From: a virus
Virus record (IMG/VR): IMGVR_UViG_3300043446_003867
Location: 1-64,000 of that record
DNA length: 64,000 nucleotides
Strand: one strand, 5' to 3'
Part shown: one piece after another, positions 5,690 through 55,693 of the stretch
Layout of the letters: the number at the start of each line of letters is the position of its first letter
How positions within the stretch are numbered: position 1 is the first letter of the stretch
Notes under the pieces: model-generated
Told to the model about the DNA's origin: nothing
The model's database searches: none
What the model saw: the letters and a program-made list of their open reading frames with translations, nothing else
Program-made: the position numbers and the translations under genes

Positions 5690-5787
5690 CATCATGCGTC
5701 TTTTTCTTATTGCGTCCTGAGCACGAATCAGCGACTGTTGATCCCGCTGAGGTCAAGGAACCTCCCAAGCAGAAAGAAGGAAACATC

Positions 5788-24503: not shown

Positions 24504-24790
24504 CTCCAACCGCATTCAACAACGCCATCGTTTCGGTCGTCTCCGCCTACGCGGAGGTGCTCCAGCAGCTTGCCGCGGAGAACGAACTTCTGAGAAAGGC
24601 GGCGAAGCAGGCGATCCCGCCCGACATGATGCTGGTGACAAAGAAGAAGTACGGGAAGCTGCGCGATATGGTTACGACCATCTCGAAGCGGGGCGCGAAC
24701 CGGAAGCAAGACGCGTCCGTCTATCTTGCCGAACTTGAAGTGCTTTACGAGCAGGCGATGGCGCTCGTGCACGAGACGGAGAACCCTTGA
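24500..24790 (+). CDS. Hypothetical coiled-coil protein
   Basis: A 96-aa protein from ATG 24500, overlapping the previous stop. Helical, with a coiled-coil-like LQQLAAENELLRKAAKQ segment. Not recognised. Confidence 0.55.
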   Translation: MTPTAFNNAIVSVVSAYAEVLQQLAAENELLRKAAKQAIPPDMMLVTKKKYGKLRDMVTTISKRGANRKQDASVYLAELEVLYEQAMALVHETENP

Positions 24791-37977: not shown

Positions 37978-38256
37978 GTGGGTGAGTGGAAGTTCAACAA
38001 GTGGGCGGATTGCTACGGGGCGTTGATCGAGGAGATCCCCGAAGTGGCGGCGGCGCGAGTGGCGGAGGTCTTCGGTCGCGGCGTGGAGATGAATCATAAG
38101 GATTACGGGGCGGAGTGGGTTTTCGAGGGGTGTGTCGAGGGGCGGCGGGTGAATTACCGCGTGTATGAGCGCGGGGGCGTCATGAGGTTCGGGGGGCCGC
38201 ATGATCATTTCGGATTTGCGGCGTTCCGCGCGTGGTTTCTGGCGTGTGTTGCGTGA
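37978..38256 (+). CDS. Hypothetical protein, cassette gene 17
   Basis: A 92-aa protein from GTG 37978, the only cassette gene with a non-ATG start. Aromatic-rich. Followed after 16 bp by the serine recombinase, probably in the same transcript. Not recognised. Confidence 0.6.
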   Translation: MGEWKFNKWADCYGALIEEIPEVAAARVAEVFGRGVEMNHKDYGAEWVFEGCVEGRRVNYRVYERGGVMRFGGPHDHFGFAAFRAWFLACVA

Positions 38257-38272
38257 TCGAAGGAGACGGACG

Positions 38273-38992
38273 ATGGCGAAGAAGATTCTCAAGGAAGCGA
38301 TGTACGCGGTGATTTACGTGCGCGTGAGCACGGATCAGCAGGCGAAGGAGGGGATCGGGCTCGACGCGCAGCTTGCGCGGTGCAAGGCGGTGGCGGAGGC
38401 GCGCGGGTTGATGGTCATCGATGATTTCCGAGACGAGGGAATCAGCGGCAAGGCGGAGATTCGGCTTCGGCCTGGTCTGCAAGCGGCGATCGCGAAGTGT
38501 AAGGAACGGAACGCGATCCTGATTAGTTATTCGGTGAGCCGTATTGCGCGTCGGCAGCGCCTTCTCTGGGATCTGCTCGATCCGGAGGGCGGGCACCGGC
38601 TGGCGTATATCTCGGCGACGGAGCCGTTTGATACGTCGACGCCGATGGGGCGCGCGATGCTCGGGATGATCGGGGTGTGGAGCCAGCTCGAAGCGGACCT
38701 CGTGAGCGAGCGGACGAAGGATGCGCTTGCTCAGGCGAAGGCGCGCGGGACGCGTCTCGGAGCGCCGTCGACGGCGTCGCTCGTTACGGAAAGCGCGGTT
38801 GCGCGGATCGACGCGTTGGCGGCGGAGGGGTTGTCGTTGCGGTTGATCGCGGACAAGTTGAACGCGGAGGGTGTCCCGACGGCGAAGGGGGTCGGGCAGT
38901 GGTGGCCGAAGACGGTGCGGTCCGTATTGGTTGATCTGCAAATCAAGCGGATTGCGGCGCTTCCGCGTCATGAAGAAAGCGAGGAACGATGA
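38273..38992 (+). CDS. Serine recombinase (resolvase/invertase family)
   Basis: A 239-aa recombinase from ATG 38273 with GAAGGAG upstream. The catalytic domain opens VIYVRVSTDQQ with the nucleophilic serine, followed by GLDAQLARC, the SYSVSRIARRQR basic segment and the TPMGRAMLGM helix of the E helix region. The C-terminal HTH (GLSLRLIADKLNAEGVPTAKG) binds DNA. Size fits resolvases rather than large serine integrases. It may integrate the phage, resolve dimers or invert a segment. Last gene driven by the cassette promoters. Confidence 0.92.
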   Translation: MAKKILKEAMYAVIYVRVSTDQQAKEGIGLDAQLARCKAVAEARGLMVIDDFRDEGISGKAEIRLRPGLQAAIAKCKERNAILISYSVSRIARRQRLLWDLLDPEGGHRLAYISATEPFDTSTPMGRAMLGMIGVWSQLEADLVSERTKDALAQAKARGTRLGAPSTASLVTESAVARIDALAAEGLSLRLIADKLNAEGVPTAKGVGQWWPKTVRSVLVDLQIKRIAALPRHEESEER

Positions 38993-41695: not shown

Positions 41696-42118
41696 ATGGC
41701 GGATCTCGTCGCACTCTGGACTGAGGCGCGCGAGGCGCGCGCGCGTTACATGGCGCTTGCGCGCGAGAAGGCGCGCGATGATGCGAGCGTTTCGCAGGAG
41801 ACGCTGACGGCGGCGGCGAACGACGCGGTGCTCGCGGAGTACCGCGCGCGTGACGCGCAGATTCGGAACACTTGGACGGAGTGGAAGGCGCCGACGCGCT
41901 ACGAGCACGTTTGGGGCAAGTGGACGGCGCGCGTCATTGATCCCGAGACGGGGATGCCGGAGCCGCAGAAGGTCATGATGGGGTGCCGCAACTGCGGCCA
42001 ACAGTGGCAGACGACGTGCGCGAGCGGGCACGTCCAAGCGCACATTCAGAAGTTCGCGGTGCAGCATCTACACGCGGACGTGTTCGGGTACGTGCCGAGG
42101 AAGGGGCTGGACGAATGA
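41696..42118 (+). CDS. Hypothetical protein with Cys pair
   Basis: A 140-aa protein from ATG 41696. An N-terminal helical region is followed by CRNCGQQW and a late Cys plus two His residues (CASGHVQAHIQKFAVQHLH), a likely zinc-binding C-terminus. Overlaps the next gene. Confidence 0.65.
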   Translation: MADLVALWTEAREARARYMALAREKARDDASVSQETLTAAANDAVLAEYRARDAQIRNTWTEWKAPTRYEHVWGKWTARVIDPETGMPEPQKVMMGCRNCGQQWQTTCASGHVQAHIQKFAVQHLHADVFGYVPRKGLDE

Positions 42119-42399
42119 ACGTGATGATTGGGGGCGGTCAGGCGAAGGCGAGCGAGGCGTGCCCGTATTGCGGCGCGTCGACGCCGCTCATGCTTGGGCC
42201 GCAGGACTTCGGGCCGGAGCACGCGGTGCAGGTCGTTGAGGCGTTGCGGACGAGCACGCTCTACGGGTGTGATGCGTGCGGGAAGAATTGGGCGGTGGTT
42301 CGGAAGAAGGGCACGCCGCCGTTCTTCCAAGGCGCGAAGGGCAATCGGCACGAGCGACGAGCGGCGGTGGCGAGGGCTCGTCGCAAGCGTGCGGCGTGA
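42115..42399 (+). CDS. Small zinc-ribbon protein
   Basis: A 94-aa protein from ATG 42115, overlapping the previous stop. CPYCG and CDACG, 36 residues apart, form a four-Cys zinc ribbon; the C-terminus is strongly basic (HERRAAVARARRKR). Possibly nucleic-acid binding or a structural adaptor. Confidence 0.65.
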   Translation: MNVMIGGGQAKASEACPYCGASTPLMLGPQDFGPEHAVQVVEALRTSTLYGCDACGKNWAVVRKKGTPPFFQGAKGNRHERRAAVARARRKRAA

Positions 42400-42411
42400 C
42401 GCGGAAGGGGG

Positions 42412-42417
42412 TAGGGT
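42412..42417 (+). promoter_or_regulatory. TANNNT -10 element six bases before a start codon
   Basis: TAGGGT ends 6 bases before ATG 42424 with no ribosome binding site between, as for a leaderless transcript. No clear -35. Confidence 0.4.
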
Positions 42418-42423
42418 TGCGCC

Positions 42424-42657
42424 ATGACTCAGGCTCAGCTCTACGCCGCATGTGTGACGATCGCGCCGAACTTCACAGTGCAGATCATTTGGACGACGCT
42501 GCCGACCGTGTCGCGGTCGATCCAGTGGTTCGGGCGACCGAAGGGAACGCTCAACAATCTGACCGGCGGCATCGTTTTCCCGGACAATAGCGACTTTGAG
42601 CCGAAGCTGACCTTCGTGCTGACGCAGGCGCTCGCGGTGCTTCAACAGGCGGGCTAG
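42424..42657 (+). CDS. Small hypothetical protein
   Basis: A 77-aa protein from ATG 42424, with alternating hydrophobic residues. It lies directly upstream of the fibre-like gene. Not recognised. Confidence 0.55.
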   Translation: MTQAQLYAACVTIAPNFTVQIIWTTLPTVSRSIQWFGRPKGTLNNLTGGIVFPDNSDFEPKLTFVLTQALAVLQQAG

Positions 42658-42668
42658 GATCGACGACC

Positions 42669-44660
42669 ATGAGCTACCTGAGTCTTCCGGCGGGCGCGGT
42701 CGCACGACCGCTTATTTCTGGCGTAGCGAACGCTGCGGGCCTGCGCGCGGTCGCTCCCTCGGCGACGTTCGGTCAAGGCATCACGGCGACCGTGACGGGC
42801 CTCGGGACGTTCGCCTTCGATACGGCGTCGCTGGCGGTCGATAACGGCACGACGGTGATCAAGCCCGACGACATCCTCGTCGGCAACCCAGGGCGATGGA
42901 TTGCTGCGGGCGGAGGCGGCGGAATCGGAGGCGGCGGCACAACGGATGTTATCCCGATGTGGAGCAGCCCGACGGCGCTGACGGATAGCCCGATCTCGCG
43001 TATTGGCGGTGCGATCGACGCGAGTTCGTTGACCAACAGCGGCGTTGGATACACGAACGGCAATTACATTAACGTTCCTCTTACTGGCGGAAGCGGTACG
43101 GGTGCCACGGCTGACATCGTGGTCTTCGGCACGTCGGTCACCGCGGTGTTCCTGCGCAAGCGCGGCATCAACTACGTGGCTGGCGAAGTGCTTTCGGCTG
43201 CGACGATCGGTCCCGGCGCGAACTTCCAGTACACGATCATCAAGATCGCCGACACGGTGGGAACGTCGGCGGAGTTTACGTCGGCGCTGAGCGTTGGTGC
43301 GGGCACGTCGTCTCCACGCGGCTCGTTTGACACGGCGGGGTGCGCGTTTATCGGCGTGCCATCGGGAACGGTCGTTGAGTATGCGAACGCGTTGCGGGCG
43401 CGTATTACGACTGGTCTTTCTATCGGCGCGCTGACGTCGTACTCAATCACGACGCCGTTAGAACTCCCGGTCGGAATGTCGATGAACCAGGCGTTCGACG
43501 GGAGCGCGATCGCTGGAGGCTGGACCGCGATCGGTATGTATTCGGTTCCGCGAGCGACGGCATCGCAAGCGGGATCGAACTACACCGTTTACGGCATGTA
43601 CTCGGTCGCGGCGCGCTCGTACGCGGCGGATCTTTCGACGACGTCAACGTATGTGGGCATTTTGACAGCCGCGCAGATTGCCGGTTCTGCGTTCGTGTCA
43701 GCGTCGACGGGCACGCTAATTGGCATCGACGCGTCGGTGGCAAACCCGCGCACGGGTCACAACGTCGGATCAATGTACGGAGGGGTATTCCGCACATCGG
43801 TATCGAACGGCACGGCGAACACCGTCGTGGGCGTGCGCGTTTCGTCAAGTGGTAGCGGCACGATCCTGGATTATTACGGTCTCCGGATTGAGCAGAACGG
43901 CACGTTGATCACGAGCAACCTGCGCATCGGTATCGCGCAGGAAGACCCGTCGTGCGCGAACTACTACCAGGGAACGTCGGCGTTCGGCATGTACGAGCCG
44001 AACCCGCGCGCTAACGTGCACGTTGGTCCGTCGACGGCGACGCATGGTTCGATGTTCTTTGAGACGGGCGTCGCTCCGGCGGTTCCGGTCACCGGTCATG
44101 TCTGGCGCGACGGAAGCGAACTCTACGTCGAGGCGCTAAACATCACGCCGCTCACGGCCAACTTCAAGGTCGGCACGGCGGGCTACGGCGTTGACTTCAG
44201 CGTCACGCCGAACGCGGGAACGTCGGAGCTGTTTGACGACTACGAGGAAGGAACGTGGACGCCGGGCTTTACGGTTACGGGCGCGGGTGCGTCGATCGCG
44301 ATCGTTAACGCGGACACCGAAGCGGTCTACACGAAGAAAGGGCGCGAAGTCACCGTGTGCTTCTCAATCGCTGTCGGCGCGATCGTTAACACGCCGCAAG
44401 GCGTCGACATCACGGGCCTTCCGTATCCCGTCGATAGTGGTTGCGGCACGTACGGCTTAACGATTCCGGTCGACATCTATCTGGGAACGAACTTCGCCAA
44501 CAAGTTCGCTGGGTTCGCGGGCACTCTCTACAACGGCGGATCGTCAATTCAGCTCGTTTGGTACGATCACAACGGCGTGATCGACGTCACGCCTGGACCA
44601 AGCATTCAGGCGAACAACAGCGTGATCAGCGCATCAATCACCTACTTTGCAGCAACGTGA
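42669..44660 (+). CDS. Fibre- or spike-like structural protein
   Basis: A 663-aa protein, rich in Gly, Ser, Thr and Ala with repetitive beta structure and a Gly-rich hinge near residues 78-93. The late ELFDDYEEGTWTPGF segment near residue 519 is a hallmark of the C-terminal region of many phage tail-fibre and tailspike proteins, just before a receptor-binding domain. Fibres are normally encoded after the tail genes; its place between terminase and portal suggests a head fibre, or a moved receptor-binding protein. Confidence 0.72.
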   Translation: MSYLSLPAGAVARPLISGVANAAGLRAVAPSATFGQGITATVTGLGTFAFDTASLAVDNGTTVIKPDDILVGNPGRWIAAGGGGGIGGGGTTDVIPMWSSPTALTDSPISRIGGAIDASSLTNSGVGYTNGNYINVPLTGGSGTGATADIVVFGTSVTAVFLRKRGINYVAGEVLSAATIGPGANFQYTIIKIADTVGTSAEFTSALSVGAGTSSPRGSFDTAGCAFIGVPSGTVVEYANALRARITTGLSIGALTSYSITTPLELPVGMSMNQAFDGSAIAGGWTAIGMYSVPRATASQAGSNYTVYGMYSVAARSYAADLSTTSTYVGILTAAQIAGSAFVSASTGTLIGIDASVANPRTGHNVGSMYGGVFRTSVSNGTANTVVGVRVSSSGSGTILDYYGLRIEQNGTLITSNLRIGIAQEDPSCANYYQGTSAFGMYEPNPRANVHVGPSTATHGSMFFETGVAPAVPVTGHVWRDGSELYVEALNITPLTANFKVGTAGYGVDFSVTPNAGTSELFDDYEEGTWTPGFTVTGAGASIAIVNADTEAVYTKKGREVTVCFSIAVGAIVNTPQGVDITGLPYPVDSGCGTYGLTIPVDIYLGTNFANKFAGFAGTLYNGGSSIQLVWYDHNGVIDVTPGPSIQANNSVISASITYFAAT

Positions 44661-44667
44661 GGGCACC

Positions 44668-45003
44668 ATGGAAGTCGTGATGAAGTACGCGCTTGACCGC
44701 GTCGAAGTTGAGCAGACCTGGAAGACGATCAATGTGCGCAGCCGCGTGCAGAAGTGGGTGAAGAACGGCGCGGACGAGATGCTGGTGGAGCCGAACGCCG
44801 GTCTGCATCGCGTCGTGCTTAACCCTGGCGACTGGGCGGGCGCGGACAAGTGGGGCGTTCGTTCGTACGCCGACATCGCGTGGGGGGCGGACGTGATTTC
44901 GGCGTGGCAGGCGGAGCAGGAACGCATTCGCGCGCTTACGGCGGCGCGTGTGCAGGCGCCGGCGGCGGACACTCAGGCTGACGTGAGCGTCGTTCCGTCG
45001 TGA
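44668..45003 (+). CDS. Hypothetical protein before portal
   Basis: A 111-aa protein from ATG 44668 with GAGGG upstream. An N-terminal VMKYALDRVEVEQTW segment and a Trp-rich middle are visible. Coupled to the next small gene. Possibly a minor head protein; not recognised. Confidence 0.6.
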   Translation: MEVVMKYALDRVEVEQTWKTINVRSRVQKWVKNGADEMLVEPNAGLHRVVLNPGDWAGADKWGVRSYADIAWGADVISAWQAEQERIRALTAARVQAPAADTQADVSVVPS

Positions 45004-45251
45004 TTCGTTCGCTGAAAGTTCGCGCCGCGACGTGGCTCACGAAGCGATTGCTGAAGTTTTTGGCGTCGCAGACTGAGAAGGAAGTCGACGAGACGGAGGC
45101 GTTCCCGACGCCTCCGCAGTCGCCTTTGACGCAGGAATCTTGCGTGATGATGTACACGCCTCCCGCGCCGCGCGTTATGAAGACGGAAGCGGCGCCGCTC
45201 GCGGGTAGCGCGAGGGCGAGGGCGGAGCAGGCGCGAAAGAGGACCGTATGA
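45000..45251 (+). CDS. Small basic protein before portal
   Basis: An 83-aa protein from GTG 45000 with a basic amphipathic N-terminus (RSLKVRAATWLTKRLLKFL) and a Pro-rich, charged remainder. Overlaps the portal start. Confidence 0.55.
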   Translation: MIRSLKVRAATWLTKRLLKFLASQTEKEVDETEAFPTPPQSPLTQESCVMMYTPPAPRVMKTEAAPLAGSARARAEQARKRTV

Positions 45252-47167
45252 GCAACGTGATGCAGATGGGCGCGAACTTGGTGATCGGTTCGTCGTTCGG
45301 GATCGACAACACGACCCTCGGGCCGGACTTCCGCGCGCGCACGCTGATCGATTCGGAACGTTACAAGGTGCTTGACCGCAAGGCGACGTACTATTCGTGC
45401 ACACAGCACGACTTCAAGAAGCACGACTTCGATGGTCGCGCGATTCCGGAAGGGAACCCGCTCCTTGGACAGCCGAATCTCGCGAGTGTTCAAGCCGATT
45501 GGTACGTACCGCTTCGCTCCCGACGACCGAGCGCCCCGTACCGTCTCGCTCGTGTCATCGTCGACTCGTTCACCAATCTCGTGTTCGGCTATCAGCGGTG
45601 GCCGACGATCCGTGTTCCTGGTGATAGCGATGCCGAAGAGTTCGTTCGCGCGCTAGTCGATGAGAGCGGGCTGCGCACGCTGATGATCCGTGCGCGAACG
45701 ATCGGAGGCTCGACGGGTAGCGTCGGGCTTTCGTGGCGGTTCTTCGCGGGCAAGCCGGTCGTGCAGGCGCACCAGCCGCGGTCGATCTACATTCACGAGT
45801 GGGAGGATCAGGATCGCCTGATCCCCGCGCACGTCATTGAGATCTATAAGTTCAGCCGCAACGAGTGGGATCCGCAGAAGCAAAAGTTCGTCGTGAACTG
45901 GTACTGGTTCCGGCGCGATTGGACGCTCAAGGCTGACATCACTTACAAGGAAGTGCGCTTCGATCAGGCGGTCGATCCCGAGTGGCAGATCGACGAGGAA
46001 GCCTCGCACGTTCACAACGATGGCTTCTGCCACTTCGTGTGGATTCAAAACCTCCCGACGGAGAACCCGGAGAGCATCGACGGCAACGCGGACTACGAAG
46101 GGCTCTACGAGAACTTCGACTCGATCGACTTGCTGCACAGCACGCTGATTCGCGGCACGACGTTGAACCTCGATCCGACGCTCGTGCTCAAGCTCGATCC
46201 CGACATCATCGAGCGCACGGGCTTGCGCAAGGGCACCGACAACGCGCTTGTTGTCGGGCAAGCAGGCGATGCACACTACATGGAGCTGCAAGGTTCTAGT
46301 GTTCAGGTCGGCACGCAGTTGTTCGCAAAGATGCGCGAAAGCACTCTCGAAGTCGCGCAGTGCGTCGTGCCCGACCCGAACCAGATTGGCGCGGCGGGTA
46401 CGTCCTCGGTGGCGTTGAAGGTCGTCTACGCGCCGATGCTTGGCAAGGCGGACATTCTCCGCGAGCAGTACGAACGCGGGTTGCTCGACCTGCTTACGCA
46501 GATGCTCAAGTCCGCGCGCAACGCCAACTCGAATCCGGTGATCCGCGAAGGTGAAAACGGCGAGATTGTCGAAGAACGTTACGTTCTCGATCTTCCGCCG
46601 CGGCTTGAGCGCCAAGATGTTCTCGACGACGAAGGGAATCCGACGGGCGAAAAAGAAGACGCTTTCGTCGATCAGACTCCGGGTGAAAGCAACCGCATCA
46701 CGTTTGACTGGGGCGATTATTTCCTACCAACGGCGCAGGATCAGCAACAAACGGCGACGACGCTTTCGCAACTCGTTGCCGGCGGTCTTCTCTCGCAAGA
46801 GAGCGGTGCTGATCTCGCCTCGCGTGTAGTCCGCATCGATCCGCGCGCCGAATGGGATCGTATTCAGCGCGAGCAGAAGGAAAAAGCGTCGCAGCAGTCG
46901 TCGATGTTTGGCGGCGATATGGGTGGTGCGCCACTTGGCGGCGATATGGGTGGTGCGCCGGAAGGCGCGGGCTTTGGTATCAAGGGCGGCATGGGTGGTC
47001 GCGTCGGTGCGGAGGACGAACTGCCACCGGGCGCGGAGCCGCGAAAGGCCGGAGCAAAGGCTCTGCGTGTGAATGAAGTTCGCGCGATGCTTGGGGAACC
47101 GTTGCTTGAAGGTGAAGAGGGCGATTTGACGCTGGAAGAGTATCGGCATCGGAAAGGGATCGCGTGA
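45248..47167 (+). CDS. Portal protein
   Basis: A 639-aa protein expected to form the dodecameric ring at the capsid vertex through which DNA passes. Recognised from size, position between terminase and the SPP1 gp7-like gene, and portal-type segments: PYRLARVIVDSFTNLVFG near residue 96, and the helical GTSSVALKVVYAPML region near 384 before the long C-terminal helices. The tail is Gly/Met-rich with a short tandem repeat (46910-46959) and ends with a NEVRAMLGEPLL-type segment typical of portal C-termini. Confidence 0.88.
   Translation: MSNVMQMGANLVIGSSFGIDNTTLGPDFRARTLIDSERYKVLDRKATYYSCTQHDFKKHDFDGRAIPEGNPLLGQPNLASVQADWYVPLRSRRPSAPYRLARVIVDSFTNLVFGYQRWPTIRVPGDSDAEEFVRALVDESGLRTLMIRARTIGGSTGSVGLSWRFFAGKPVVQAHQPRSIYIHEWEDQDRLIPAHVIEIYKFSRNEWDPQKQKFVVNWYWFRRDWTLKADITYKEVRFDQAVDPEWQIDEEASHVHNDGFCHFVWIQNLPTENPESIDGNADYEGLYENFDSIDLLHSTLIRGTTLNLDPTLVLKLDPDIIERTGLRKGTDNALVVGQAGDAHYMELQGSSVQVGTQLFAKMRESTLEVAQCVVPDPNQIGAAGTSSVALKVVYAPMLGKADILREQYERGLLDLLTQMLKSARNANSNPVIREGENGEIVEERYVLDLPPRLERQDVLDDEGNPTGEKEDAFVDQTPGESNRITFDWGDYFLPTAQDQQQTATTLSQLVAGGLLSQESGADLASRVVRIDPRAEWDRIQREQKEKASQQSSMFGGDMGGAPLGGDMGGAPEGAGFGIKGGMGGRVGAEDELPPGAEPRKAGAKALRVNEVRAMLGEPLLEGEEGDLTLEEYRHRKGIA
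46910..46959 (+). repeat. 27-bp tandem repeat inside the portal gene
   Basis: Two copies of a 23-bp unit (46910-46932 and 46937-46959, period 27 bp) encode GGDMGGAP twice. In frame and likely a flexible tail segment. Confidence 0.85.
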
Positions 47168-48195
47168 AGCGACTCTCACAAGCGATGTTGATCGACCGAC
47201 GGCAAGCGTTCGCGCTTGCCGATCGCGTTGGTAAACGCGAAGTGGAGCGCATGATGAAAGATGCGGCGGACGAGCTACGCGCGCGCATCTCGTCCAACAT
47301 CGCGACAAGCAGCACGACGCCAACGTCGATTCGTGAAATGCGGGAGACGCTTGCGCAGCTTGAAGGCGTGACAAAGGCGCTATCGCGGCGGGTGGGACGA
47401 ACGACACTCGGGATGGCCGGTGAGGCGGCGGAAGTCGCGGCGAGTGCGGTGTTTGATTATATGGAGGACGCGAATCGCGCGTACATGGGGCGGCCGCTCG
47501 GATTGCGCGAAGCGAGCGTGCTCACCGAAGCAGTGTCCGGCACGAATGCGTCGGTACTTCGACGACTCGCGTCGACCGAGTCGCAGATCGAAGACGTGAT
47601 GGCGGATCCCGACGCAGCGGAAGTTGCACCGCGTATGAATGCGGAGGGCGGCGTGCTCTCGCGGTATTCAATGGAGACGATCGGTGTCTTTGAAGACACA
47701 CTTCGCAACGGCATGATCACGGGAAAACCGTGGGGTGACGTGCGGCAGGAGTTGATCGACAAATCGCCATTCCTGCAAGGCGCGCCGCGTTTCTGGGCGG
47801 AACGCATCATCCGTACGGAGACGATGACTGCTTACAATCGCGCGGGATGGGAGACGATTCGCGAAGCTGACGATGAGCTTGGCGACATGACGAAGATCCT
47901 GAGTGCGACGTTCGACAACCGGACGGGATGGGATAGCTACCAAGTTCACGGGCAGATTCGGCGACCCGACGAGGCGTTCCAGTGGGCAGGTGGGTTCTAT
48001 CAGCATCCGGCGAACCGCCCGAACGATCGCGAAGTCGTCGTACCGCATCGCATTTCGTGGCCGATCCCGGATGAATTGTCGTGGCGCAGCGACGCGGAAG
48101 TTGTCGCAGCATGGCAGCGGGATCGGAGGAAGGGCGCTCCTCCGCCGCGTCCGAAGATGACGACGATCGACTTGAAACGATTCGGACGCGGCTGA
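47164..48195 (+). CDS. SPP1 gp7/MuF-like minor head protein
   Basis: A 343-aa protein from GTG 47164, overlapping the portal stop. The N-terminal part is helical. The MuF/gp7-type domain is visible around residues 215-300: ERIIRTETMTAYNRAGWETIREAD, then a WDSYQVHGQIRRPDEAF segment with the conserved His. These proteins bind portals and influence head assembly and DNA ejection. No extra toxin domain is fused here. Confidence 0.8.
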   Translation: MKRLSQAMLIDRRQAFALADRVGKREVERMMKDAADELRARISSNIATSSTTPTSIREMRETLAQLEGVTKALSRRVGRTTLGMAGEAAEVAASAVFDYMEDANRAYMGRPLGLREASVLTEAVSGTNASVLRRLASTESQIEDVMADPDAAEVAPRMNAEGGVLSRYSMETIGVFEDTLRNGMITGKPWGDVRQELIDKSPFLQGAPRFWAERIIRTETMTAYNRAGWETIREADDELGDMTKILSATFDNRTGWDSYQVHGQIRRPDEAFQWAGGFYQHPANRPNDREVVVPHRISWPIPDELSWRSDAEVVAAWQRDRRKGAPPPRPKMTTIDLKRFGRG

Positions 48196-48199
48196 TTGC

Positions 48200-48229
48200 T
48201 TGCGCCACATCTCATTCGCGCGCTACGGT
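48200..48229 (+). promoter_or_regulatory. Candidate promoter before small head genes
   Basis: TTGCGC (48200), 18-bp spacer, TACGGT (48224), then a GGAGG ribosome binding site before ATG 48245. Confidence 0.45.
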
Positions 48230-48244
48230 ACGCGCGGAGGCAAC

Positions 48245-48550
48245 ATGGCGAAGCCGTTCAAGCTCAGTGGCAGCAGTGGTACCGGACCGGCGCGTGACAG
48301 CGGTGGTCGTTTCTTGCGTGCCGCGCTTCCGGGCGAACTCGTGACGAAGTATCCCGCGGAGAAGGGCTTCACCGACAACGAGGCGCTGCGTGCGCTTCGT
48401 GTTCCCGATCGGATGGTTGGTGAAGGCAAGCCGAAGAACGTCGCTGGTCCTGGCGCAACGGCGCCCGCGCCTGTATACCCGGATGCGCTTCCGTGGCCGA
48501 AGGCGGAACCGTTCAACGACGCGAACAAAGTCCCCTTCAAGTTCCGATGA
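48245..48550 (+). CDS. Small head protein with terminal PFK motifs
   Basis: A 101-aa basic, Pro/Gly-rich, probably disordered protein. It begins AKPFKL and ends VPFKFR; the next gene product ends RKPFKL. The shared terminal motif suggests a docking peptide for a capsid or portal site. Position between the gp7-like gene and the scaffold suggests a structural role. Confidence 0.6.
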   Translation: MAKPFKLSGSSGTGPARDSGGRFLRAALPGELVTKYPAEKGFTDNEALRALRVPDRMVGEGKPKNVAGPGATAPAPVYPDALPWPKAEPFNDANKVPFKFR

Positions 48551-48559
48551 GGTAATACG

Positions 48560-48922
48560 ATGGCTGAAGCGAAGACGCCGGGCGATGGCAAGACCTCGCC
48601 CTTTGGCAACGGTTCCGGAAAAGGCACGAACACAGGAGCATCGACGATGGCTAACTCGACGGCGGGCGCGAACCCCGGCAAGAACGGCAACAACTTCCTC
48701 ACGAACCCCTCGGGCAACTCCCCGGCGGGTGCGAAGCCGACCGACTTCACGCGCGCCAAGGTTGCGACGCAGAAGTCGGGTCAGGCTGCGGACATCAACG
48801 CGCAGTCGGCCATCAAGGACAAGGGTCAGCTCGTTCCTCTCGCGGACGTCACCAGCGGTCCGCGCAAGGAAATGGTCGGCGCGGGTTCCATCGGCGACAG
48901 CCGCAAGCCGTTCAAGCTCTGA
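48560..48922 (+). CDS. Small disordered head-region protein
   Basis: A 120-aa, Gly/Asn/Thr/Lys-rich protein that looks disordered and ends in RKPFKL, as the neighbouring product begins. Preceded by AGGTAA. Likely virion-associated; not recognised. Confidence 0.58.
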   Translation: MAEAKTPGDGKTSPFGNGSGKGTNTGASTMANSTAGANPGKNGNNFLTNPSGNSPAGAKPTDFTRAKVATQKSGQAADINAQSAIKDKGQLVPLADVTSGPRKEMVGAGSIGDSRKPFKL

Positions 48923-48928
48923 TCCATC

Positions 48929-49351
48929 ATGGGCCAGCTTGCCATCAGCGGAACCGTAATCGGCGGACCAGTCACGGTCGGCGCCGCGTTCGGTTTTCCG
49001 CAAGCGATGTTCACGACGCAGCTCGCTACGACGCCGTCGCCGAAGCCGTTCTCGGCGGCGTCGGGCGTGCTGACGCGACGCCTCGCGACGGTGCCGCCAG
49101 CGTGGGCAACGCTTACGGGCGTTGGTCCCACCGACACGGTGCAGCGAGGCGATACGCTTTACCTGCGCAGCGATTCGCAGGTGCTTCTGCGCTTGTCGCA
49201 GGTTGATCCGCTCAATCCGAGCGGACCTGCGCTCACGCGCGAAGTCTACGTGCAGGGCCTTTTCATCTGCGAGTTCCCGCAATCCTCGTTGCTGGTGTTG
49301 CTGGAGGCGCAGGGTTCTGCAACCATCGAGTACCTCATTACGGGTCAGTAG
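48929..49351 (+). CDS. Hypothetical structural protein
   Basis: A 140-aa beta-rich protein from ATG 48929 in the head gene block. The hydrophobic C-terminus includes LFICEFPQSSLLVLLEAQGSA. Possibly a head decoration or stopper protein; not recognised. Confidence 0.6.
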   Translation: MGQLAISGTVIGGPVTVGAAFGFPQAMFTTQLATTPSPKPFSAASGVLTRRLATVPPAWATLTGVGPTDTVQRGDTLYLRSDSQVLLRLSQVDPLNPSGPALTREVYVQGLFICEFPQSSLLVLLEAQGSATIEYLITGQ

Positions 49352-49363
49352 GAGTTCACAGTC

Positions 49364-50038
49364 ATGTCGGAAACGATCAAGCAATCTCTCAACCGCGCGG
49401 ATCTCAACACGCTCGCGGACCAGCTTCGCACCCTCGCCTTCGGCGACATCGTCGCTTCGCTCCCGACGACGCTTCGTCAGAGCGCGGCTGCGGTGGGTTC
49501 GTTCGTGGATCCGGCGACCAACTTCGTCGTGTCCGCGCAGGATGCGGACACCCCCGCGTGCGCGGTGCTCTACGCTTCGGCTCGCGCGGGTGCGGGTACT
49601 CCCGGCGTCCTCACCATCGTTGCGTACGGCTCCGTGCCCGCGGCTGGTGAGATCTGCGTCGCGCCGAACGGCCAGCTTGTGACGGCGACCGCCGACGCGT
49701 GGACCGATCTTGACGTGGTCTTCGTGCCTGAGAAGGGCACGATCGTTGAGGTGACGGCGAACGTGTCCGCGAACACGCTTACCCTTCCGACCAACGTGAC
49801 CACGGTCGGCGCGTGCACCCTCATGGAATGCACCGTCCTCACCGGTGGTTCCGTCGGCGCGAAGTTCGTTGAGCTTCCGGGCACCGCTCCGGCGGCTGGC
49901 TCGGCGGCGCTCAACGCGGCCAAGACCACTGTCGCGTTCAACGCTGGCGACGCGGTCACCAGCGCGACGGTCAAGTTGCTCGTGTCGTCGTCGGTCGACG
50001 TCGCGGCTCTGCTCGCTTCCACGAGCAGCTTCGTCTGA
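49364..50038 (+). CDS. Putative head decoration protein
   Basis: A 224-aa, Ala/Val/Thr-rich beta protein directly before the scaffold and capsid genes. The preference for C-ending codons matches the capsid gene, suggesting strong expression. Position and composition fit a decoration or cement protein; I cannot recognise a specific family. Confidence 0.55.
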   Translation: MSETIKQSLNRADLNTLADQLRTLAFGDIVASLPTTLRQSAAAVGSFVDPATNFVVSAQDADTPACAVLYASARAGAGTPGVLTIVAYGSVPAAGEICVAPNGQLVTATADAWTDLDVVFVPEKGTIVEVTANVSANTLTLPTNVTTVGACTLMECTVLTGGSVGAKFVELPGTAPAAGSAALNAAKTTVAFNAGDAVTSATVKLLVSSSVDVAALLASTSSFV

Positions 50039-50067
50039 TCAACTGAGGTAAGGGAGTAACCTCGCAC

Positions 50068-50895
50068 ATGAACGGTATGGACCAAGCCACCACCACCGAG
50101 GTCACGGGGACGCCCGTGACCGCATCTGTTTCCACGACGGGCACCGCGCCCGTCACGACTGCCGTTGGTACTGCTACGGGCGAGTCGTTTGCGACGAAGA
50201 AGGCCGAACCGGCGACCGCACAGGCGGCGGAACCCAAGGCGACCAAGCGCGCAACGAAGCTCTCGCTCTCGCAGCAGGACTTCAACGAACGCATCAAGCG
50301 CGCGAAGACGAGCGCGTTCAAGGATGCGTTCGGCACCGACGACGTCGATAGTATCAAGCAGCGTCTCGCTCGCGCCGAGGAGCTGGAGGCGCAAGCCGAG
50401 GAGGCGCGCGTCGCTCGTATGAGTGAAGTGCAGCGTGTGAAGTACGAAGCGGATCGTGCGCGCCGAGAGGCGCAACAGTATCGCGCGCAGGTTGAAGAGA
50501 TGCGCGAGCGCGAAGTGGTTCGCGATCAGCAGTCCTTCGTGGAGCGCGTTGCATCGCGACACGTCAATCCGGTTTACATGGAGGAGGCGTCGATCGCCTT
50601 CGCTCGTGAAGTCGCGAAGGCGGATCCCCGTGAAGTTGCTCGCTGGACTGAGAAGGACGTTAGCCGTTGGTTCGCGAGCTACGTCGCGAAGAAGCCCGCG
50701 TTCGCCGCGTCGCCGAACGCGCGTAAGATTGAGAAGAAAATCGCGAGCGCGCCCACGCCGCCGCCGCGCCCCGCTCGCCCTGCGACTCCGAGTGGGTCGG
50801 CGGTTCCGAGCAAGACGTTCAAGCCGGGTCAGCCGAACAGCATGACGCGCGAAGAAGCGCGAGCAGAAGCGAAGCGACGCGGTTACACTTGGTGA
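50068..50895 (+). CDS. Capsid scaffold protein
   Basis: A 275-aa protein. A Thr/Ala-rich, disordered N-terminus is followed by a highly charged coiled coil (about residues 95-160, RAEELEAQAEEARVARMSE onward) and a basic Pro-rich C-terminus. This is the usual architecture of internal scaffolds, and it lies immediately upstream of the major capsid gene. No protease domain is fused, so the maturation protease must be elsewhere. Confidence 0.75.
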   Translation: MNGMDQATTTEVTGTPVTASVSTTGTAPVTTAVGTATGESFATKKAEPATAQAAEPKATKRATKLSLSQQDFNERIKRAKTSAFKDAFGTDDVDSIKQRLARAEELEAQAEEARVARMSEVQRVKYEADRARREAQQYRAQVEEMREREVVRDQQSFVERVASRHVNPVYMEEASIAFAREVAKADPREVARWTEKDVSRWFASYVAKKPAFAASPNARKIEKKIASAPTPPPRPARPATPSGSAVPSKTFKPGQPNSMTREEARAEAKRRGYTW

Positions 50896-51016
50896 TGTTC
50901 TAACGTCGATGATCTCGACACCGACGCTCACGCTACGCTGGCGGTCAACAGCGGTTTCAAGCGACGGGCAGAGATAAGACGACATAAAGTCAGTCAGTCA
51001 GTCAGGAGAAAGATCA
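50896..51016 (+). promoter_or_regulatory. Leader and candidate promoter of the capsid gene
   Basis: A 121-bp gap before the capsid gene. TACGCT at 50934-50939 is a candidate -10 with a poor -35. Four tandem GTCA units (50989-51004) run directly into the GGAGAAA ribosome binding site. The leader probably supports high expression. Confidence 0.45.
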
Positions 51017-52405
51017 ATGCCTCTCGTTCTTGGTATTCCCCCCAGTGTTGTGAAGCTCGTGCAGGAAGGTCTGCTTGAGCGCGCGTTCCACGATGGCCTC
51101 TTCCCGGCGCTCCAGTACCGCCAGGAAGCGCTCGTCGAAGAGTGGCCGGCCAACACCGGCAACGAACTCTTCATGAGCCGTCCGGGCCTCCTCGCGCCCG
51201 TGACGAAGCCGCTCCAGCCGGGCACCGACCCGAGCCCGCAGGCGGTGAACTACGAGCAGTGGACCGCGGTGCTCAACCGCTTCAGCGGTACCATCGACAC
51301 GAACATGCCGACGAGCGCGACCGCTTCGTCGAACCTGTTCCTCCGCAACATCCACCAGCTGGGCCTCCAGGCTGGTCAGTCGCTCAACCGCATCCCGCGT
51401 AACTCGCTGTTCAAGGCGTACCTCTCGGGCCAGACGCTCACCATCGCGGCGGGCGTTGCGGGCGACACGACGATCCGCGTTGCGGCTCTCAACGGCTTCA
51501 CCACGGTCGTCATCCCGTCGTCGACGGTGCGTCCGGTCCCGGTGTCTCCGGCGACCCCGCTCACGGTGACGATCTCGGGTGTCACCGGCACCCGCAACGT
51601 CGTCGGCTTCACCCCGGACAACCCGGACGATCCCGATGGTCCCGGCACCCTTCAGCTCAGCGCGGCTCTCGGCGGCGCTGGTGTTGCGAACCGCGCTCCG
51701 GTCATCTCGTCGGCGGCTCCGCTCGTCATCCGCAGCGGTGGCGGCATCTCGGTCGACGCGCTCAACGCGGGTGACGTGTTCACCCTTCAGGACGCGATCA
51801 ACGCCGTCAACAAGCTCCGCCGCAACAACGTGCCCCCGCACGAGGACGGCTACTACCACGCGCACATCAGCCCCGACGGCAACGCGCAGGTCTTCACCGA
51901 TCCGGCGTTCCAGCGCCTCAACACCGCCCTCCCGGATTATCATATCTACCACGAGGGCTTCATCGGCACGATCGCCGGCATCATGTTCTTCATGAACACC
52001 GAGTCGCCGGATCGCAACAACGTCGGCACGCTCATCTCGACGGGTGCGAACTCGCTCTACGGCGAGGACATCGGTTCCGAAGTCGTCAACGCAGCGGGCG
52101 TCAACGTCGGCCGCATCCTCATCACGGGCCGTGGCGCTCTCTACGAGAAGTGGCTCCCCGGCACGAACTTCGTCTCTGAGGCTGGCATCACCGGCAAGAT
52201 GGGCGAGTTCGACATCGTCAACGGCGGCATCAACGTGCAGACGGAGCGCATCGACCTGATCCTCCGCGCGCCGCTGAACCGCCTCCAGGACACCGTGGCT
52301 GCGACGTGGCAGATCAGCACGTCGTTCCCGGTTCCGAGCGACATCACCTCGGGCACGGGTCCGGAGCGCTTCAAGCGCGCCGTCGTGATCGAGCACGCGC
52401 TCTGA
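51017..52405 (+). CDS. Major capsid protein
   Basis: A 462-aa protein and the main shell component. Evidence is its place after the scaffold, a strong ribosome binding site, near-exclusive use of C-ending codons as in highly expressed genes, and a terminator directly after it. HK97-type features include an N-terminal helical segment (VVKLVQEGLLERAFHDGLFPAL), a Gly/Val-rich inserted beta domain (about residues 130-250), and a C-terminal stretch with LILRAPLNRLQDTVAATW. No N-terminal cleavage site can be fixed by eye. Confidence 0.88.
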   Translation: MPLVLGIPPSVVKLVQEGLLERAFHDGLFPALQYRQEALVEEWPANTGNELFMSRPGLLAPVTKPLQPGTDPSPQAVNYEQWTAVLNRFSGTIDTNMPTSATASSNLFLRNIHQLGLQAGQSLNRIPRNSLFKAYLSGQTLTIAAGVAGDTTIRVAALNGFTTVVIPSSTVRPVPVSPATPLTVTISGVTGTRNVVGFTPDNPDDPDGPGTLQLSAALGGAGVANRAPVISSAAPLVIRSGGGISVDALNAGDVFTLQDAINAVNKLRRNNVPPHEDGYYHAHISPDGNAQVFTDPAFQRLNTALPDYHIYHEGFIGTIAGIMFFMNTESPDRNNVGTLISTGANSLYGEDIGSEVVNAAGVNVGRILITGRGALYEKWLPGTNFVSEAGITGKMGEFDIVNGGINVQTERIDLILRAPLNRLQDTVAATWQISTSFPVPSDITSGTGPERFKRAVVIEHAL

Positions 52406-52420
52406 TCGTTGCGGTATAGA

Positions 52421-52456
52421 GAAGGGCGAGCCTCGAAAGGGGCTCGCTCTTTTCGT
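52421..52456 (+). terminator. Intrinsic terminator after the capsid gene
   Basis: AGGGCGAGCC pairs with GGCTCGCTCT, with a CGAAAG-type loop, followed by TTTT. It ends the high-level capsid transcript. Confidence 0.9.
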
Positions 52457-52546
52457 TAGAAGTCATGCTATTCATCGTGACGCAGGGTCGCCGTAACCTT
52501 CCCCGAGTGCCCCCCCTCGGAACGCATCGCGGCGACCCTGCACTTC

Positions 52547-53509
52547 ATGGGATGGTGCAAGATGCGGCAGACGTCATTGATTACATGGGCGCGAGCAACC
52601 AGCGGCTTCGGCGACAAGCGATCCGGCAAAACCGAGTTCTCGTCGCAACAGGCGTTGCAAACGTATTTGCGCCAGCATCCGAAGGCGGACGCAAGCAAGC
52701 ACTCCGTCGTGCAGCAAAAGCAGCAGCAGGCGCAGAAGGAAGAACCGTCTCGCAAGACTGCGCAGAGCCACGGGCATGCGGTCAGCGAGAAGGCGCGTGC
52801 GGAAACCAAGTCCAAGATCGAAACGCTCGCAAAGCAGGGGAAGGTCGCAGGTAGCTACGACGCGCTCCACAAAGAGGGCGTTGAGTTTTTGAAGAAGCAC
52901 GCGGCGGGTCTTCCGGCGTCGAAGTCGGCGCTCACGGAGTTGTCCGCAGACCTTGGCGGCAAGGTGTCGGGGCGTACGAAGGAGATCGATTCGGCGCTCA
53001 ACAAGGTTGTGCTGAAGCACAAGGGGAACGATCCGAGTCGCCCCGAGAAGGGTTACTCCAAGGTGTCGGAACTTGCGGACGGCGCGGGTCTTCGATGCAT
53101 TGTAAACTCACCGAAGGACGTGCTCACGGTCGTTGATCGGTTGAAGAAGGATCCTCGCTTTGAGAACATCTCGAAGGACGAGGAGGATTACATCACCAAG
53201 CCCAAGGGCGGGTATCGCTCGTACCACCTTGTCATGCGCGACAAGCGCGATGGGCTGTTGAAGGAATTTCAGATCCGGACGCCTCGGCAGAATACGTGGG
53301 GCGATTGGTGTCACGACGTCTACAAGCCGCAGAACGCGTTGCAGATGGCGACGATGAAGGATCCGCTCGCGAAGCGCGAAGTGCTCGCGTACGCCGAGAA
53401 GATGTCGGATCGTTACTTCGACATGGATAGCGGGAAGAAGCCGCGCGGGTCGGCACCGCCTTGTACGCCCGCCATCAAAAAGTCGTTCGGGTGTCTGCCC
53501 GATAAGTAG
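52547..53509 (+). CDS. RelA/SpoT-type (p)ppGpp synthetase-domain protein with a shared N-terminal module
   Basis: A 320-aa protein. The N-terminal module (residues about 12-56, EFSSQQALQTYLRQHPKAD then ASKHSV) is shared with the 53756 product. The C-terminal RelA/SpoT synthetase fold shows R143-x-K145 with S149 and K153, DGAGLR at 178-183, the G-loop KPKGGYRSYH at 218-227 and catalytic EFQIRT at 240-245, then WGDWCHDVYK. No HD hydrolase domain is present, so it should make rather than degrade (p)ppGpp or a related nucleotide. It follows the capsid gene, which is unusual. ATG 52562 is an alternative start. Confidence 0.82.
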   Translation: MGWCKMRQTSLITWARATSGFGDKRSGKTEFSSQQALQTYLRQHPKADASKHSVVQQKQQQAQKEEPSRKTAQSHGHAVSEKARAETKSKIETLAKQGKVAGSYDALHKEGVEFLKKHAAGLPASKSALTELSADLGGKVSGRTKEIDSALNKVVLKHKGNDPSRPEKGYSKVSELADGAGLRCIVNSPKDVLTVVDRLKKDPRFENISKDEEDYITKPKGGYRSYHLVMRDKRDGLLKEFQIRTPRQNTWGDWCHDVYKPQNALQMATMKDPLAKREVLAYAEKMSDRYFDMDSGKKPRGSAPPCTPAIKKSFGCLPDK

Positions 53510-53520
53510 GAGCGAAAACC

Positions 53521-53754
53521 ATGGCTGACAAATCGTGGGTTGAGCGGTCGAGTGAAGCGATTGAGCGCTTCATGCCGAAGGCTGGCGAGGGGTTCAACGT
53601 CGTTGCGGTCGATGCGTACGAGGAACCCGGCGACGAGTTGTACCTAGTCGGTAACTTCGAGAGCGAAGCCGAGGCAGAGGAAGCGGCGGCAGCGCATACG
53701 AAGCGCAGCGGCGATAAGGCGTACGTGTACGCGCCGGAAACGTTGAGGCGTTGA
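53521..53754 (+). CDS. Small acidic protein beside the RelA-like gene
   Basis: A 77-aa acidic protein (ESEAEAEEAAAAHTKRSG is its helical core) preceded by AGGAG. It starts 12 bp after the synthetase gene and is probably cotranscribed. A neutraliser of the synthetase is conceivable from position and charge, but a small head protein is equally likely. Not recognised. Confidence 0.6.
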   Translation: MADKSWVERSSEAIERFMPKAGEGFNVVAVDAYEEPGDELYLVGNFESEAEAEEAAAAHTKRSGDKAYVYAPETLRR

Positions 53755-53755
53755 G

Positions 53756-54598
53756 ATGCCACTCAAAAAGGGTTCTAGCGACGAAACGATTGGCGCCAAC
53801 ATCGGTAAGTTGGTCGGAGAAGGCTACCCGCAGAAGCAGGCTGTAGCGATCGCCTACAAGGAGGCGGGTCGCAGCAAGTCTGGTTCGGAATGCGTTGCGT
53901 GCTCGACGAAGAGTGCGCGTGGCAAGTGCGTGAAGTGCGAAAGCGGTCGCGGCGCTCTGGTGACGTGGGCTCGCTCGGTGAGCGGCATGGGTCGCAGTGG
54001 CAAGGCAGAGTTCTCTTCGCAACAGGCGTTGCAGAGCTACCTTCGCCAGCATCCGAAGGCTGACGCGAGCAAGCATAGCGTTGCGCAGGCGGCGACGAAG
54101 TCGGCTGCGCCGCAAGAGGCCAAGCCCGAGGTTCACCCGGAGTTTTCCAAGTTCGTCTCTACGCTGTACCCGGCTATTGCGGCGGGTCATCTATCCGGAC
54201 CCGATTCTCTGAAACTCATGGCGAAGCATCCGCACGCTCCTGCCGGGTTCGAGAAACATCTGGAGGGCGACGCGAGCAAGCATAGCGTGACGGGCGGAGA
54301 GCAGCCGAAACTCGCCGAGGCACGTCCGTCGATTAAGCGCGCGTCGACGAGTCGCTTTCAGGATCCGAAGGGGCCGATGAAGTGGCGGGCTGGCGACGAT
54401 TCTAGCAAGTACATTCACACGCTTGATGGAACGTACAATTGGACGCCTTCAACTGGGCATCTCTCGTTCATTTCAAATAAGAACGGGCGGCGCACCGTTC
54501 TTTCCAAGGATCTTAATCCACGGCGCACTGGCGGATTTCACGATATGAAAAACGAAGAGCAAGCCATGGAGCGCGTCAAGCAACACGCGAATAGGTGA
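53756..54598 (+). CDS. Modular head-region protein sharing the N-terminal tag
   Basis: A 280-aa protein built of modules. Residues 1-45 (PLKKGSSDETIGANIGKLVGEGYPQKQAVAIAYKEAG) match a small domain widespread in phages and large viruses. A Cys cluster follows (CVACSTKSARGKCVKC). Residues about 68-111 repeat the EFSSQQALQSYLRQHPKAD-ASKHSV module of the RelA-like protein, and a second, shorter DASKHSV occurs near residue 178. The C-terminal part (NWTPSTGHLSFISNKNG) is unrecognised. Likely virion-associated. Confidence 0.68.
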   Translation: MPLKKGSSDETIGANIGKLVGEGYPQKQAVAIAYKEAGRSKSGSECVACSTKSARGKCVKCESGRGALVTWARSVSGMGRSGKAEFSSQQALQSYLRQHPKADASKHSVAQAATKSAAPQEAKPEVHPEFSKFVSTLYPAIAAGHLSGPDSLKLMAKHPHAPAGFEKHLEGDASKHSVTGGEQPKLAEARPSIKRASTSRFQDPKGPMKWRAGDDSSKYIHTLDGTYNWTPSTGHLSFISNKNGRRTVLSKDLNPRRTGGFHDMKNEEQAMERVKQHANR

Positions 54599-54601
54599 GC
54601 C

Positions 54602-55693
54602 ATGGCCGGGAAGTACGACCACATCGACTTCAAGCCACCGTCATCCGTCGCGAACGCGGCGGAGCGCGGGCTTGAGTACCGCAAGAAGCAGGGCAAGGAC
54701 AAAGCCGGCTTGACGCAGAAGGAAGCGTCGAAGCAGGGCATCGGCTCTGGCGTTCAGCGCGCGTCGAACCTTAAGGGGCGGAGCAATCTGAGCCCCGAGA
54801 CGGTGCGGCAGATGGGTCGGTTCTTCTCGCGTCATGAGAAGAACGCGAAGATCGATGCGGAGCACAAGGGTGAGCCCTGGAAGGACAAGGGCTACGTAGC
54901 GTGGCTCCTTTGGGGTGGCGACGCTGGGCGGTCGTGGGCGAACAAGGTGATTCGGCAGATGGACGCTGCGGACAAGAAGTCGGGCAAGGGCATCGAGGAC
55001 GCGTGCTGGAAGGGCTACGAGGCGGTCGGCATGAAGACCAAGAATGGTCGGAAGGTGCCGAACTGCGTGCCGAAGAAGGGTAAGGGAATCCCCGACGCGC
55101 AGGAGCGCGCGGCGTTCGATATCCCTCTCGCTCGGTGGGCGAACGCGATGGGCGGTCGCGGCGTCGAGCTTCGCGCTCCGGCGGTGAAGCAGAAGACGAA
55201 CTACTCGTGCGGACCGGCGGCGCTTCGTTCGGGAATGGCGGCGCTCGGTGTCGGCGCGAAGGAAGACGAGCTAGCCGAGAAGGCGGAGACGAGCGCGAGC
55301 GGTGGCACGAGTATCCACGGGCTCGCGAAGGCGGCGCAGGCGTTCGATCTGGAAGCCGAGATCCGCGATGGCATGACGGTGGACGAACTCATGTCGTGCA
55401 TGGACGATGGGTGCGTGGTCCTCGTTTGCTTGCAGGCGGGCGACGACGCGGAGGATTACGATTCTTCGCACTGGGTGCTGCCGGTAGCGGTGAAGGACGA
55501 GGGCGGCGCTCCGATCGTCGAGTGCATGGACCCGAGCCGGAAGAAGGTTCACTCCGTGATGAAGCTCGACGAGTTCGAGGAGCGCTGGCACTGCGTCGAC
55601 ATGGGCAAGCCGGTCAACGGGCTCGCGCTCGTGATCCGCGGAGAGTCGCCGGCGAACATGACGCTGATCGACACGGCGAAAATGCCGATGTGA
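54602..55693 (+). CDS. C39-like cysteine protease fused to head-associated domains
   Basis: A 363-aa fusion. Residues about 5-125 form a phage domain with FKPPSSVANAAERGLEYR, SNLSPETVRQMGRFFSRHE and YVAWLLWGGDAGRSWA. Residues about 135-162 hold CWKGYEAVGMKTKNGRKVPN, also widespread in phages. From residue 195 a C39-type papain-like peptidase follows: Cys203 in NYSCGPAAL, His290 in SSHWVL and Asp310 in MDPS, a complete triad. It may process capsid or cargo proteins, since no ordinary prohead protease is seen, or act inside the host. Confidence 0.78.
   Translation: MAGKYDHIDFKPPSSVANAAERGLEYRKKQGKDKAGLTQKEASKQGIGSGVQRASNLKGRSNLSPETVRQMGRFFSRHEKNAKIDAEHKGEPWKDKGYVAWLLWGGDAGRSWANKVIRQMDAADKKSGKGIEDACWKGYEAVGMKTKNGRKVPNCVPKKGKGIPDAQERAAFDIPLARWANAMGGRGVELRAPAVKQKTNYSCGPAALRSGMAALGVGAKEDELAEKAETSASGGTSIHGLAKAAQAFDLEAEIRDGMTVDELMSCMDDGCVVLVCLQAGDDAEDYDSSHWVLPVAVKDEGGAPIVECMDPSRKKVHSVMKLDEFEERWHCVDMGKPVNGLALVIRGESPANMTLIDTAKMPM

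Follow-up and report, generated by a model that had tools for sequence, protein, structure and literature searches.

Why should a small alarmone synthetase be encoded directly behind the major capsid protein of a phage? The question is raised by the gene at 52547-53509 of a 64,000-nucleotide stretch of DNA (the window), which is positions 1 to 64,000 of the 89,081-base IMG/VR virus record IMGVR_UViG_3300043446_003867, a myovirus-like phage. The best explanation overall, and judging from sequence comparison a probable one, is that this gene encodes an effector carried as virion cargo. This reading is the better supported on three independent counts: because the synthetase has an N-terminal tag in common with other effectors, because the same tag is joined to a type IB topoisomerase at the same locus of a related phage, an exchange visible at the DNA level, and because relatives of the synthetase recur in the head-gene blocks of other elements. 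Feature coordinates are collected in Table 1.

An initial annotation, made from the sequence without database searches, had identified the protein as a RelA/SpoT-type synthetase, and both the hidden Markov model search and the fold comparison bear this out. The domain matches PF04607 with an E-value of 2.3e-16 (60.5 bits, the cut-off being 27), and the top phmmer match among Protein Data Bank (PDB) sequences is the GTP pyrophosphokinase 2be3 (1.9e-7). A profile of six phage relatives recovers RelQ and RelP at 1e-23 to 1e-19 and the long RelA/SpoT homologues (RSH) at 1e-15 to 1e-6, with CapRel at 1.5e-8 and FaRel2 at 1.5e-7. The AlphaFold2 model has a core of about 90 on the predicted local distance difference test (pLDDT), and its Foldseek matches include RelQ, RelP and further small alarmone synthetases (E 1e-8, target-normalised template modelling score up to 0.72). 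Every motif read in the initial annotation is present: RxK with the following S and K (R143xK145, S149, K153), DGAGLR (D178xxG181xR183), the KPKGGYRSYH G-loop (GYRSYH, with Y223, S225 and H227) and EFQIRT (E240xQ242xR244T). The synthetase domain thereby looks catalytically intact. No HD hydrolase domain was detected, either by a Pfam scan of the protein or by a search for HD_4 (PF13328) across the whole 89-kb record, for which the positive control worked; the upstream gene, as had been supposed, is that of the major capsid protein. The second ATG of the reading frame is the likelier start, since the protein from MRQ onward aligns with its homologue in the related contig L033.

Within the first 54 residues lie a leader (LITWARATSGFG...) and, 25 residues long, the module EFSSQQALQTYLRQHPKADASKHSV, which we refer to as the HPxAD module. 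The suggestion that the synthetase shares an N-terminal module with another head-region protein was correct: it has 79% identity over about 50 residues with the product of 53756-54598. Comparison with phages carrying related capsid proteins indicates what such a module may be for. The capsid protein of L033 is nearly identical to that of the window, and a single blastn alignment of 11,016 nucleotides at 90.9% identity joins the two from window position 41709 to 52709, where it stops with the final codon of the module (52706-52708). Beyond this break, L033 encodes the catalytic core of a type IB topoisomerase (PF01028, 4.4e-28) and no synthetase. The module also precedes a type IB topoisomerase in L019, a more distant relative (PF01028, 9.4e-37), and it is attached to other, unrecognised C-terminal regions in L005, L007 and L008. 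Together these patterns indicate that the head region carries interchangeable C-terminal domains behind one tag, and the occurrence of unrelated domains at the same locus and behind the same tag amounts to a swap of putative cargo between RelA and topoisomerase IB. The topoisomerase cores lie with their modules in the head-gene block in both cases (L033:11512-12334 and L019:13718-14803), and are candidates for virion-packaged topoisomerases.

The module is not confined to these loci. Because a tblastn search with the module against 50,697 phage records gave no match, we sought it in viral contigs with a degenerate DNA pattern for Y-L-[KR]-x-H-P-x-A-D-xxx-H-x-[VI], which lets some other residues pass. 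The 99 stretches retrieved represent about 56 distinct proteins after de-duplication, including some from the capsid relatives already collected and many in jumbo phages; one match, in L085, was discarded as a low-complexity frame. There are 73 distinct copies of the module, 45 of which begin no more than 60 residues from the start of the open reading frame, and the 12 records searched for multiple copies have between one and four per phage. Conservation extends to residues that the pattern did not specify, with phenylalanine at -9 in 57 of the 73 copies, serine or threonine at -7 in 69 and alanine at -4 in 63, which argues that the module is real. It is usually preceded by A-x-E-F (A in 53/71, E in 50/73, F in 57/73). 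The Pfam domains found on module proteins are Topoisom_I (twice), RelA_SpoT, Zeta_toxin, 2H/LigT phosphoesterase, ParBc_2, pentapeptide repeats and DnaJ, and L141 contributes an ADP-ribosyltransferase (ART) domain, from the DRAT family; among the many neighbouring genes are those for portal proteins and for head maturation proteases. In the scans made, the HPxAD module itself matched no Pfam or PHROG family.

Some proteins contain the module more than once: L106:6903-8267 and L091:9477-12518 each have two to three copies, every one behind its own short leader. Separately, a leader-like helix, 'RLAHxxPELRxxLLPLL', recurs at both ends and in the middle of long head-type proteins in L094, L052, L043, L080 and L092, which have the look of polyproteins composed of several packaged segments.

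Relatives of the synthetase place it in a similar genomic setting. A search of viral contigs with the whole protein returned none; they were retrieved with an alignment of the core domain, and the profile of an early alignment retrieved only the L019 contig again (as L044). The best match among named phage records belongs to the archaeal Nitrososphaera provirus Pro-Nvie1 (L003), in which a gene labelled 'N-terminal Rel_Spo-like domain' follows the portal gene. The synthetase of L144 has a different N-terminal region and sits between terminase and portal, while in L150 (1-1749) an inorganic-pyrophosphatase-like (InPase) polyvalent domain (PF18823, 2.1e-35) is fused ahead of RelA_SpoT (3.2e-19) in a gene upstream of the prohead protease and scaffold genes. 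In L019, a RelA_SpoT domain is encoded directly after the portal and MuF genes (5233-6450) and is followed by a C-terminal dual-specificity-phosphatase-like (DSPc) domain, a weak match below the curated cut-off (PF00782, 1.9e-4). The initial annotation had regarded a lack of homologues in other phage head blocks, together with absence from virions, as telling against its proposal; such homologues are present in four other elements, one of them an archaeal provirus. The relatives in L003, L144, L150 and L148/L149 have in common with the window protein a VYKP-type motif and a C-terminal D.G region; identity to the five aligned relatives is 27-44%. Matches also occur in Streptococcus, Listeria and Staphylococcus phages, of which the one annotated case examined, Javan576, was set aside as irrelevant in context, since it lies beyond the lysis genes and next to host-like genes.

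A second recurrent association concerns the small gene immediately downstream (53521-53754), which the initial annotation had overlooked. Homologues of its acidic product are encoded directly 3' of RelA_SpoT in five divergent elements (the window, L144, L003, L148/L149 and L150), separated by a few bases or overlapping, and share the motif PK.G.GFN.V..D.FE.PGE.LY. A search of viral contigs for this partner retrieved four loci, each of them right behind a RelA_SpoT gene. The partner could be assigned to no known fold or family, and its profile had no significant match among PDB sequences, toxSAS antitoxins included, a comparison limited to solved structures. We would give about even chances that the partner acts as an immunity protein. 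An HD-type (p)ppGpp hydrolase was considered as the means of immunity and rejected, there being none in the record.

It seems quite probable from these comparisons that the synthetase is cargo and is delivered with the virion, and the mechanism we propose is as follows. Leader and module would load the enzyme into the prohead; in the producing cell the partner would bind and restrain it, so that the late phase of virus production is not poisoned. On infection the synthetase would enter the host together with the phage DNA, the partner being left behind or diluted out, and would move pyrophosphate from ATP onto a guanosine nucleotide. The resulting pulse of (p)ppGpp could curb translation, replication and the making of rRNA and tRNA in the host ahead of phage gene expression. 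With regard to loading, A-x-E is the prohead-protease site that frees N-terminal propeptides from head proteins of the giant phage SPN3US, two of which are just 20 and 24 residues long (PMC10052503), and the A-x-E before most copies of the module would fit a targeting leader that is cut off in the prohead.

The nature of the product can be approached through the catalytic motifs. The window protein has SxH at syn3 (the G-loop), GLR at syn2 and QIRT at syn4, as guanosine enzymes do; the signature of the Apk2 enzymes, from which guanosine-specific RSH proteins differ, is GxN, RYT and YH, although signature residues alone do not settle nucleotide specificity (PMC12226406). These residues favour (p)ppGpp over another product without proving it, and, if the enzyme is active, a product of guanosine type is rather likely. 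The initial annotation had offered either a stringent-type shutdown or pyrophosphorylation of some other target; the SxH G-loop favours the former without being proof of it. A packaged effector that makes something else, whether (p)ppApp like the MuF toxin Apk2 or Tas1, or pyrophosphorylated tRNA like FaRel2 and CapRel, is possible but unlikely. Characterised MuF-linked and PAAR-linked synthetases of the same fold do make (p)ppApp (PMC12226406 and its references), and the structural neighbours of the window protein include a viral protein named Tas1; yet its motifs are those of the guanosine signature, inconclusive as residues by themselves are, and its highest profile similarity is to (p)ppGpp synthetases.

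Less probable still is that the gene supplies a small alarmone synthetase or toxSAS of the usual phage sort, produced within the infected cell for host takeover, superinfection exclusion or as part of a toxin-antitoxin pair, with its place beside the capsid gene incidental and its module serving some other purpose. The downstream partner does resemble a bicistronic toxin-antitoxin layout, and a strong RNA hairpin follows the capsid stop codon, ahead of the synthetase gene, which means that the two need not share one transcript (a terminator scan picks the hairpin up on the minus strand only, and it lacks a perfect T-tract). Stand-alone RelA genes also exist near an integrase (L146) and outside head blocks in other contigs, and the relative found with identical sequence in L148 and L149 is not clearly in a head block. 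Such an enzyme would not lead us to expect a tag that is present on a second head-region protein and traded for topoisomerase IB at the same locus, nor a subfamily that recurs in head blocks, fused to InPase or right after MuF; and the profile scores of the tRNA-acting FaRel2 and CapRel (1e-7 to 1e-8) are far below those of RelQ/RelP (1e-23). Very improbable is a minor protein of virion structure or packaging whose synthetase fold is a non-catalytic remnant kept for binding, since, despite the fusion to a head-region module and the loss of the syn2 arginine in L019 (GASV for GxRV), the motifs are intact in the window protein and four of the five aligned relatives, and the gene is missing from most capsid relatives and so is not needed for assembly.

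Several observations weigh against virion cargo as we have described it. The tag of the window protein has K-T-E and not A-x-E before the phenylalanine, and neither of the two families of prohead protease searched for in the record, S78 and S49, was found, so that the cleavage step is not supported for this phage. The module folded at moderate confidence only and had no structural match. Among the 31 loci with related capsid proteins in IMG/VR, many of them short fragments, RelA_SpoT occurs only in L019, where it is located elsewhere, is divergent and has no partner gene; the synthetase is an accessory trait among capsid relatives. In L144 the partner domain forms one chain with a ParB-like domain, an odd arrangement for a simple immunity protein. 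Finally, a search of GTDB found one further partner copy, in a Nitrososphaera metagenome-assembled genome (L151:6990-7110), with an interrupted frame and no RelA upstream; it follows a portal-like gene (a weak PHROG match, 2.7e-4). Elsewhere in the L151 provirus the motif 'FNPxHDPxTGRFASGG' recurs in a portal-like protein (4813-6492) and a second protein (13425-14081).

The idea of virion-associated RelA/SpoT effectors is not itself new. The initial annotation assigned the known phage small alarmone synthetases to prophage defence or toxin-antitoxin loci, which overlooks earlier proposals of delivery: RelA-like domains in MuF proteins have been reported as likely head-loaded toxins (PMC5576092), the Apk2 MuF toxins produce (p)ppApp and are accompanied by immunity partners (PMC12226406), and polyvalent proteins for which injection is predicted include some with RelA/SpoT and InPase domains (PMC5512222). 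Effectors of this kind have therefore been predicted already, and the window synthetase belongs among them. Like the MuF toxins, it is encoded at a phage head locus as a variable C-terminal domain, with a small gene directly downstream that may confer immunity and a proposed delivery with DNA; unlike them, it has no MuF domain (PF04233) and its motifs are of the guanosine and not the Apk2 type. The phage has a separate MuF gene, so the synthetase is not the MuF protein; homology between its partner and IapK is not established, and no Aph1-like HD-type hydrolase was found. Polyvalent proteins draw on much the same effector repertoire (RelA/SpoT, InPase, 2H, ParB), are encoded near late virion genes and are predicted to be injected (PMC5512222), but are large multidomain chains, whereas here one enzymatic domain stands behind a 25-residue tag.

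The T4 internal proteins and Alt, and the SPN3US head proteins (PMC10052503), provide an analogy, compared by description, in that head-packaged, injected proteins carry a short N-terminal leader; unlike the SPN3US propeptides, the HPxAD module lies after the A-x-E and would stay on the mature protein, and the window protein has no A-x-E. In fold, motifs, single synthetase domain and absence of an HD domain, the protein is like RelQ/RelP (YjbM, YwaC, SAS1/SAS2), from which it differs by its N-terminal module, about nine extra residues inserted ahead of syn2, the VYKP/D.G C-terminal extension and the linked partner gene. The toxSAS modules (FaRel2, CapRel) similarly combine a synthetase with a small adjacent protein, but sequence similarity is much weaker, the context here is one of head genes, and the partner matches no toxSAS antitoxin among solved structures. 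Neither the HPxAD module nor the RelA-partner pair was found described among the papers searched, subscription papers and preprints aside. As far as these searches show, the shared tag, the DNA-level exchange with topoisomerase IB and the pairing of synthetase and partner across bacterial and archaeal viruses appear to be new.

The phage encodes its own family B DNA polymerase, DnaB, primase and RecA, and Pfam and PHROG scans give the order of the virion block as terminase, portal, MuF, capsid and sheath. The C39-like peptidase-fold gene is kept near the capsid gene in the relatives L005, L006, L007 and L019, and a serine recombinase gene (38201-38992; PF00239, 3e-33; PHROG integrase / DNA invertase) lies beside the terminase gene. 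Bases 1-503 of L033 match window positions 24082-24584, while the adjoining part matches from 41709 onward, which suggests a rearrangement or inversion. Comparison contigs, designated by L numbers, are mostly metagenomic fragments.

Table 1. Features of the synthetase locus and its surroundings (window coordinates).
Feature	Position	Strand	Evidence or remark
Portal protein	45248..47167	+	phrog_64, E 8.1e-10
MuF-type head morphogenesis protein, own gene	47164..48195	+	PF04233, 4.1e-8
Major capsid protein, 462 residues	51017..52405	+	phrog_1357 major head protein, E 2.8e-18
Strong RNA hairpin, terminator or attenuator candidate	52419..52454	+	-31.9 kcal/mol, z -5.05
Small alarmone synthetase gene	52547..53509	+	annotated ATG 52547; likelier start ATG 52562
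N-terminal leader LITWARATSGFGDKRSGKT	52571..52633	+	resembles leaders of other module proteins in this phage group
HPxAD module EFSSQQALQTYLRQHPKADASKHSV, proposed virion-cargo tag	52634..52708	+	common to 53756-54598 and proteins of other contigs
RelA_SpoT nucleotidyltransferase domain	52970..53323	+	PF04607, residues 142-259
Subfamily-specific C-terminal extension after the VYKP motif (D.G region and FGC tail)	53324..53506	+	alignments with phage relatives
Acidic partner protein, 77 residues, candidate immunity protein	53521..53754	+	relatives directly downstream of RelA_SpoT genes
Second module-bearing head-region protein	53756..54598	+	phrog_2423 domain; HPxAD module within 53951-54100; unrecognised C-terminal part
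C39-like peptidase-fold protein	54602..55693	+	PF03412, 6.9e-8; related 'LARWANAMGGRG' stretch before domain

A wider proposition has two parts: that the HPxAD module and its leader are a general, hitherto undescribed cargo tag of many tailed phages, jumbo phages included, through which interchangeable host-takeover enzymes are loaded into the head, and that the RelA-partner pair is a mobile effector-immunity unit common to tailed viruses of bacteria and archaea, so that even an archaeon would receive an alarmone synthetase. We consider this a little short of an even bet; the archaea are not a domain known for a classical ppGpp response. If virion cargo is the correct reading, phages would bring a stringent-response enzyme, already made, into the host as infection begins, and one short tag would allow the repertoire of injected effectors of many phages to be read from sequence alone, flagging as cargo the topoisomerase IB, zeta kinase, 2H phosphoesterase and ART proteins, which are not recognised as such by other means. 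One synthetase subfamily is linked to one small partner five times over, in viruses of bacteria and archaea, which offers a concrete and testable toxin-immunity pair, and the tag itself is a potential portable packaging signal.
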